Below are positions 28,882-32,016 of a DNA stretch of 64,000 nucleotides, piece after piece. The translations under genes were made by a program, and so were the position numbers. The stretch spans positions 1-64,000 of the forward strand of contig CAIKUQ010000005.1 in the NCBI GenBank assembly GCA_903830655.1, in the 5' to 3' direction. The notes under the pieces are model-generated. The model saw nothing but the letters and a program-made list of their open reading frames with translations, had not been told where the DNA came from and did no database searches. How positions within the stretch are numbered: the first letter of the stretch is position 1; every line of letters begins with the position of its first letter. Source of the DNA: an uncultured Actinomycetes bacterium (GTDB lineage: Bacteria; Actinomycetota; Acidimicrobiia; Acidimicrobiales; RAAP-2).

Positions 28882-31800
28882 GTGTTTCGCCCTATCAGCG
28901 CAGAGTTTGATTTTGTGGCCCTCGAAGAGGCCGAATTAGAGCGGTGGAGCCAACACGACATTTTTGCGCGCTCGATGCAACAGCGTGAGGGGGCCCCCGC
29001 TTGGGTCTTCTACGAAGGACCGCCCACTGCGAACGGTAAACCCGGCTTGCACCACGTATGGGCGCGAATCTATAAGGACTTATTCTGTCGGTACCAAACA
29101 ATGCAGGGGCACTACGTTGCTCGTCGCGCTGGCTGGGACACCCACGGACTTCCCGTGGAGGTCCAAGTCGAAAAGCAACTGGGAATTTCTGGCAAGAAGG
29201 CCATCGAAGAGCAGGTCGGAATTGCCGAGTTCACGAGACTGTGCAAAGAGTCGGTGCTCACCTACATTGGCGATTTTGAAAAGCTCACCAGCCGCATTGG
29301 CTACTGGACTGATATGGCTAACGCCTATTACACCTTTAACCCCAGTTACGTGGAGTCGGTTTGGTGGCAGCTGCAACAGCTCTTTGATCGCGGACTGCTC
29401 TACGAAGATCTCAAGGTCATCCCGTACTGCCCGCGTTGTGGCACCTCGCTCTCTTCGCACGAACTTGGACAACCCGGCGTCTACACCGACGAGGTGGATG
29501 AATCTTGTTACGTGCTGTTTCCCATCACCGATGCCGATCAGCACAACGCGCTCCAAGGCGCAACGCACCTAGCGGTGTGGACAACAACACCGTGGACGCT
29601 GCTCTCGAACGTGGCGGTCGCGGTAAACCCAGCGGTGACCTACGCGGTCGTCGACGGCTCGGTTGTCGCGCAAGAACTTGTCGAAGAGGTCTTTGGCGAA
29701 GGCGCACAGGTTTCGGCAACCATCAAGGGTGCCGATCTCGCCGGCGTTCACTACCAGCGCCCCTTTACGGACGTTCCGTACGACGATGGTATTGACGTCA
29801 ACTACGTCGTCCTAGCGGACTACGTAACGACCGAAGACGGAACGGGGCTCGTTCACCAGTCACCGGCCTTTGGTGAGATCGACCGCCAAGTGGCCCGAGC
29901 GAATGGCCTGCCCACGGTTAATCCCGTTGGTCCCGATGGTGCGTTTACTAGTGAAGTCCCGTGGCTCGAGGGCATTCAAGTTCGAGAGGCGAACCACCAA
30001 ATCAATGATGAATTAGAGAAGCGTGGTTTCTTGCTTCGCCGCTTTAACTACAGCCACTCCCTCCCACACTGCTGGCGTTGTGGCACCGTCTTGATCTATT
30101 GGGGCAAGCCCTCTTGGTACATCGCGACGAGTCAATTCAAAGATCAATTGATTGGCGAAAACGCAGGTATTGATTGGCACCCCGCGCATATTCGCGAAGG
30201 GCGAATGGGTGAGTGGCTTCAAAACAATGTGGACTGGGCCCTGTCGCGCGACCGATTCTGGGGAACGCCACTGCCCATATGGCGCTGCGAAGACAAGCAC
30301 TACACCTGTGTGGGATCACGAGCCGAACTTTCTGAGTTAGCTGGTCGTGATGTCAACGACATCGATCCACACCGTCCCGCAATTGACGAAGTCACCATTA
30401 ACTGTCGCACCTGCCAGAAGCCCGCTCAACGTATCGCCCCGGTGATTGACGCCTGGTTTGACTCAGGCTCAATGCCCGCCGCCCAAGTCGGCTACCCCCA
30501 CGTCGAGGGCAGTGAAGCGGCCATGCAATTCCCCGCGCAGCTCATCGTCGAGGCGATTGACCAGACTCGCGGATGGTTCTACTCACTACTGGCGGTAAAT
30601 ACCTTGGTCTTTGGCGCGACCCCCTACGAACACGTCCTGTGCCTGGGTCACATCGTTGACGAAAATGGCAAGAAGATGAGCAAGTCCCAAGGCAACGTGA
30701 TTGACCCGTGGGATGTGCTCTCTACTCGCGGTGCTGATCCACTTCGCTGGTGGATGTTCTCGCAAGGTTCCCCGTGGACCTCGACTCGCGCGGGACTCGG
30801 AGCAATTGACCATTCTTTGCGCGAGACCATCGCGACCTGGTGGAATACCTACAGCTTCTTCACGACCTACGCATCCCTGAACGGCTTCGACCCTGCTGAT
30901 GGGGAGATTCCCACGTGGGCGGATCGACCGGAGATTGACCGCTGGATTTTGTCGCGCCTGGAATCGGTCACCGTCGAGGTCACCGAATCACTCGAAGGGT
31001 ACGAACCCCTCTCGGCCACCTTGCCCTTAGCCGCATTTATTGATGAACTCTCAAACTGGTACGTTCGACGTTCTCGCCGCCGCTTCTGGCGCACCGATCC
31101 CACGGCCCCGCGTTCAGACTCACTGGCGGCCCAAGCGACCTTGCTCGAAGTACTACAACGGCTCACACTTTTGATGGCCCCCTTCTGCCCCTTCATTACC
31201 GACTCAATGTATCGAGAGCTCTTTGCGGCGGCCGAATCGGACTCTGTTCACCTGGCTGATTGGCCTTCGAGTGAACCAGCCAAGCGCAACGTCGAACTCG
31301 AGCGCGCCATGGAGGTTGCTCGACGCTTGACCTCACTCGGTCGCGCCGCTCGAGCCGAAGCTCACGTCAAGGTTCGTCAACCATTGGCTCGAGCACTGGT
31401 CTTTATCCCCAGTGGGGAAGTACACCCACCGGCGGGCATTGTGGAAGATGAGTTGAACGTGGACCTTTTGGAATACGGACAAGAGCTAGCCGAAGTACTC
31501 AGTTTTGAACTAGTACCGAATTTCCGAACGGTGGGGCCACGCCTCGGCGAAGCGGTCAAGGAATTGAAGCCCGCCCTAGCAGCGCTTGACTCGGTGGTCG
31601 CCGCCGAAGCGCTCGAAGCCGGTCAGGCCATCTCGGTGACGCTTTCGACGGGGGTATTTGAACTCAGTGGAGAGGATGTTGAATTACGCGTCAAGAGCCA
31701 GGGTGGATTTGCCGTGTCGCGCGAAGGCGGCGAAGTCATCGCCCTCGACCTGACGCTCAACGATGAACTTTTGCGTCGCGGATACTTGCGTGATGTCGTG

Positions 31801-32016
31801 CGTCAAGTCCAAGACCTTCGAAAGACCACCGGACTAGAGGTGTCTGACCGCATTGTCCTTCACGTAACGGGTATTGATGACCTATCGGATGGATTCGCCA
31901 CATTGGCGAGCGAAGTGTTGGCCATCGACGTCATCACGGGTGAAGGAGTCGGTGAAGGTGCGAAGCTGGAGTTGGACGATGAGCGCGAGGCTTTCGCCTG
32001 GCTCGTCAAGGCCTAG
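28882..32016 (+). CDS. ileS: isoleucyl-tRNA synthetase, type 2 with GXHH signature
   Basis: Charges tRNA-Ile with isoleucine; 1044 residues. GTG start with AAGGAG 7 nt upstream. The N-terminal catalytic core has FYEGPPTANGKPGLHHVWAR: the class I HIGH motif reads G55-L56-H57-H58 instead of HxGH. KKMSKSQGN is the second signature. The editing domain includes WTTTPWTLLSNVA and GTGLVHQSPAFG; zinc-type Cys pairs occur in CPRCGTSLSSHE and CWRCGT. The long C-terminal domain resembles Thermus and eukaryotic-type IleRS2. From the literature, type 2 enzymes resist mupirocin, and those with the swapped GXHH signature are reported as hyper-resistant. Confidence 0.97.
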   Translation: MFRPISAEFDFVALEEAELERWSQHDIFARSMQQREGAPAWVFYEGPPTANGKPGLHHVWARIYKDLFCRYQTMQGHYVARRAGWDTHGLPVEVQVEKQLGISGKKAIEEQVGIAEFTRLCKESVLTYIGDFEKLTSRIGYWTDMANAYYTFNPSYVESVWWQLQQLFDRGLLYEDLKVIPYCPRCGTSLSSHELGQPGVYTDEVDESCYVLFPITDADQHNALQGATHLAVWTTTPWTLLSNVAVAVNPAVTYAVVDGSVVAQELVEEVFGEGAQVSATIKGADLAGVHYQRPFTDVPYDDGIDVNYVVLADYVTTEDGTGLVHQSPAFGEIDRQVARANGLPTVNPVGPDGAFTSEVPWLEGIQVREANHQINDELEKRGFLLRRFNYSHSLPHCWRCGTVLIYWGKPSWYIATSQFKDQLIGENAGIDWHPAHIREGRMGEWLQNNVDWALSRDRFWGTPLPIWRCEDKHYTCVGSRAELSELAGRDVNDIDPHRPAIDEVTINCRTCQKPAQRIAPVIDAWFDSGSMPAAQVGYPHVEGSEAAMQFPAQLIVEAIDQTRGWFYSLLAVNTLVFGATPYEHVLCLGHIVDENGKKMSKSQGNVIDPWDVLSTRGADPLRWWMFSQGSPWTSTRAGLGAIDHSLRETIATWWNTYSFFTTYASLNGFDPADGEIPTWADRPEIDRWILSRLESVTVEVTESLEGYEPLSATLPLAAFIDELSNWYVRRSRRRFWRTDPTAPRSDSLAAQATLLEVLQRLTLLMAPFCPFITDSMYRELFAAAESDSVHLADWPSSEPAKRNVELERAMEVARRLTSLGRAARAEAHVKVRQPLARALVFIPSGEVHPPAGIVEDELNVDLLEYGQELAEVLSFELVPNFRTVGPRLGEAVKELKPALAALDSVVAAEALEAGQAISVTLSTGVFELSGEDVELRVKSQGGFAVSREGGEVIALDLTLNDELLRRGYLRDVVRQVQDLRKTTGLEVSDRIVLHVTGIDDLSDGFATLASEVLAIDVITGEGVGEGAKLELDDEREAFAWLVKA

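Follow-up and report, generated by a model that had tools for sequence, protein, structure and literature searches.

A type 2 isoleucyl-tRNA synthetase with a swapped HIGH motif, predicted to be hyper-resistant to mupirocin, in an uncultured actinobacterium

Background

Can an isoleucyl-tRNA synthetase (IleRS) that reads GLHH at the place of its HXGH signature be the housekeeping enzyme of its organism, and what would this motif mean for the action of mupirocin? We asked this question for an ileS gene found on a stretch of 64,000 nucleotides from an uncultured actinobacterium (the window in the following). The relevant features are:

28882..32016, + strand: ileS, type 2 isoleucyl-tRNA synthetase, 1044 amino acids, GTG start (open reading frame; TIGR00392; PF00133, PF08264, PF19302/DUF5915; PDB matches to PmIleRS2 and TtIleRS2)
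29044..29055, + strand: GLHH, swapped class I signature at the HXGH position, residues 55-58 (translation; kept in the genus and in the wider actinobacterial clade)
30673..30687, + strand: KMSKS signature, intact, residues 598-602 (coordinates computed from residue 598)

Results

The gene and its signatures

The open reading frame of ileS is unbroken and has full length. Its product scores 884 bits against the ileS model TIGR00392 (cut-off 621), and its domains are the class I synthetase domain PF00133, the anticodon-binding domain PF08264 and, at the C-terminus, PF19302/DUF5915. The original prediction had placed a GLHH motif at codons 29044-29055, within an otherwise intact PPTANGKP...VWAR context. 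The translation agrees with it on both points: the codons give Gly55-Leu56-His57-His58, and the context reads YEGPPTANGKP-GLHH-VWARIYKDLF, with GHIVDENGKKMSKSQ downstream of the motif. GLHH thus has Gly at the first position and His at the third and fourth positions, which is the definition of the G/AXHH form. Furthermore, H590 and K601 align with His582 and Lys593 of the Priestia megaterium enzyme PmIleRS2, that is, both residues are kept.

GLHH is found in every member of the genus for which the N-terminus was read (the conservation was scored on these members only), with protein identities of about 72-94% to the window IleRS. Since all of them share the identical four residues, and since these residues recur in dozens of independently assembled genomes, chance is excluded, and the probability that the HIGH codons reflect faulty sequencing or assembly is practically negligible. 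In a public genome collection, most records that contain the same gene bear the label Acidimicrobiaceae, Actinomycetes or uncultured actinobacterium. One contig (L068) was deposited as Acidobacteria; it carries a genus-typical GLHH IleRS (79% identity) with the same neighbours as in the genus, and its label is probably a binning or naming error.

Assignment to type 2

The best matches among solved structures are the PmIleRS2 chains, which score 846-855 bits and cover query residues 18-1013; the alignment reaches residue 1000 of PmIleRS2. The top-scoring chain, 8c8w (855 bits), aligns with PGVHH at the motif position and is therefore itself of the swapped form; its swap was engineered, the wild type of P. 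megaterium being HVGH (PMC10485003), whereas that of the window enzyme is natural. The structure of the Thermus thermophilus enzyme (TtIleRS2) scores 826 bits. IleRS1 structures are far behind: PmIleRS1 and those of the 1ffy type reach 347-361 bits (PmIleRS1 361). This comparison with IleRS2 enzymes, proposed along with the original prediction, was run here against solved structures. The closeness to IleRS2 rather than IleRS1 over the whole length, the DUF5915 C-terminus and the separation from IleRS1 in the tree described below all point in the same direction. Judged by its sequence, the enzyme is a type 2 (eukaryote-like) IleRS, and the earlier claim that it belongs to this type and bears the GXHH signature described in the literature is upheld.

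Distribution of the swapped motif

To survey the class, we searched 198 genomes with the degenerate DNA patterns GPPxANGxP[G/A]xHH and GPPxANGxPHxGH. The GXHH pattern was present in 67 genomes and the canonical type 2 HXGH pattern in another 36, and none of the 198 contained both. The remaining genomes fit neither pattern; in a sample of them we read HYGH, HYGN, GVHT or a GLHH whose context deviates slightly from the pattern. Among the type 2 enzymes fetched from a sample of 80 genomes of the phylum, GXHH made up the majority, X being L, I, V, F, S, T or A. The rarity that had been implied for the motif is contradicted by these frequencies, as well as by a published survey, in which 86 of 379 sampled IleRS were G/AXHH IleRS2 (Brkic et al. 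2023, PMC10485003).

Copy number and surroundings

The source genome comprises 1,403,840 bases in 74 contigs and is 94.9% complete. The window ileS is its sole gene above the TIGR00392 cut-off, and protein and TIGR00392 searches for a second ileS in this draft found none. The next protein matches are a ValRS-like gene on contig C53, the HIGH motif of which reads HIGH, a gene on contig C51, presumably LeuRS, and other, weak matches to class I synthetases. At a threshold of E <= 1e-100, 59 of 60 relatives possess one ileS gene; where two matches occur, as in a few relatives, the query ranges indicate a single gene that is split or broken.

One could still suppose that the GLHH enzyme is an accessory or degenerate copy and that a canonical ileS lies elsewhere in the genome, which is, after all, an incomplete draft in many contigs. 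This is very improbable, given that no other gene passes the family cut-off, that each relative from the genus has one ileS, that no genome of the class combines both motif patterns and that the reading frame is intact and full length. An overlooked second ileS is unlikely at this completeness. We have also rejected a pseudogene or accessory copy on the grounds of conservation, intact reading frame and single-copy searches. Within the limits of the draft genome, the results support the window ileS as the sole, housekeeping copy; the search for a second gene, suggested with the original prediction, has come out in favour of its claim, and the relatives in the genus are single-copy too.

The neighbours of ileS are an MFS transporter, glutathione peroxidase, HAD hydrolase, GNAT, MarR regulator, YceI and a second MFS gene; the ends of the MarR gene and of ileS overlap over four bases. 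Because most of these neighbours are found again around ileS in the relatives from the genus, the context is a stable chromosomal one and not a mobile resistance island. MupA and MupB (NCBIfam NF000257 and NF000258) are homologous, mupirocin-resistant IleRS, and the window enzyme stays below their cut-offs, with 745 and 732 bits vs 1900. Unlike them, it is encoded by a sole copy in stable surroundings. An acquired resistance gene was ruled out, as glutathione peroxidase, HAD, GNAT, MarR and YceI recur in the genus and the MupA and MupB cut-offs are not reached.

Tree and lineage history

For 81 IleRS we calculated a maximum-likelihood tree by a quick method, leaving out the motif columns and using SH-aLRT only. 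The window IleRS is placed within its genus, then its family and then a clade of members of the class and phylum in which all enzymes are GXHH. Sister families have canonical HYGH enzymes, which form a separate clade and share about 36-40% identity with the window IleRS; families of one order thus differ by ileS lineage and not by point change. Within the class, the swapped or canonical form tracks the ileS lineage that each genome carries, and within the genus the GXHH motif is handed down vertically. For the whole tree, 3 changes between the swapped and the canonical form are enough, vs 23.5 with shuffled labels; with many deep forks open, the number and direction of the changes are provisional.

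Other ileS variants in related genomes

Several other variants came up among the collected sequences. A deep IleRS clade has both class I signatures altered: L189 (G072), L063 (G039) and L064 (G037) read DGPVTANKTL-[G/A]VHT, with REMHGSW at the KMSKS position, and L159 (G296) and L104 (Myxococcota) read GVHH with PMHKS or EMHKS. In G072, G039, G037 and G296 no ileS other than the altered gene exceeds the family cut-off. A literature search on the two IleRS signatures in connection with Chloroflexi turned up no paper on this clade, which looks more surprising than the GLHH of the window.

In L154, L182 and L184-L188, IleRS2 enzymes from several families of the class and including genomes of about 1 Mb, the motif is HYGN or HFGN, that is, the fourth residue of HIGH is Asn instead of His; the three such genomes tested (G061, G064, G105) have a single ileS over the cut-off. 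Finally, L161 (G289) is an IleRS1 with HLGT at the HXGH position, while HXGH was found in all IleRS1 sampled in the 2023 paper (PMC10485003).

Discussion

How might an IleRS with this motif work? Our literature searches singled out one study that bears directly on the swap, that of Brkic et al. 2023. In IleRS2 structures the tip of alpha-1 is shifted, so that the third His takes the catalytic place of the first, and modelling shows that this third His would clash with mupirocin; Ki values of G/AXHH enzymes go up to the millimolar range (PMC10485003). For mupirocin, DrIleRS2 from Deinococcus radiodurans (ALHH) has a Ki of 6.6 mM in the same study, and it loses 823-fold when its motif is converted to HVGH. 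Conversely, GVHH mutants of TtIleRS2 and PmIleRS2 are active, with Ki rising from 0.20 to 35 uM and from 1.08 to 460 uM, respectively, a gain in resistance of about 200-fold or greater. IleRS1 does not tolerate the swap (PMC10485003).

The natural G/AXHH enzymes of that study, from Streptomyces griseus and D. radiodurans, are likewise of type 2 with positions 1 and 3 of HXGH swapped, and the KMSKS of the window enzyme is intact too. The window enzyme differs from them by sequence divergence alone; it has GLHH and is known from sequence, in an uncultured Acidimicrobiaceae-like actinobacterium.

Taking the published enzymes together with the motif, type, conservation, tree position and single copy in the draft genome observed here, we arrive at the following reading, with a probability of roughly 0.93. 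The gene would encode the housekeeping type 2 IleRS, which would activate Ile and charge tRNA-Ile despite the swapped HIGH motif. By homology, His57 would be the catalytic His, and its predicted clash with mupirocin would make the enzyme intrinsically hyper-resistant. This hyper-resistance is predicted on sound grounds of homology (PMC10485003), and the upkeep of the motif in this uncultured organism need not be due to it.

Indeed, the swap is perhaps an old, catalytically neutral alternative within type 2 IleRS that is kept by descent, with resistance as a by-product and not a selected trait, a view that differs from the reading above in the origin and upkeep of the motif only and not in how the enzyme works. 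We would give it slightly less than an even chance. GXHH is spread widely among the sampled genomes of phylum and class without sign of recent gain, the whole genus has the motif, and the surroundings of ileS are ordinary and stable in the genus. On the other hand, selection by antibiotics has been proposed (PMC10485003), and laboratory swaps in PmIleRS2 and TtIleRS2 shift kcat or KM by up to about 10-fold, which suggests that the swap is costly in some backgrounds. More tentatively, GXHH may be the old default form of the active site in Acidimicrobiia, the HYGH of the sister families going back to whole-gene replacement and not to motif reversion, with resistance being incidental.

Conclusions

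The kind of swap seen in this enzyme has already been published (Brkic et al. 2023, PMC10485003) and is common in this lineage; the window IleRS adds another case and brings no new mechanism. What it does is to extend a published natural variant of the class I signature to an uncultured genus where this variant is universal, inside a class where swapped and canonical forms are partitioned by ileS lineage.
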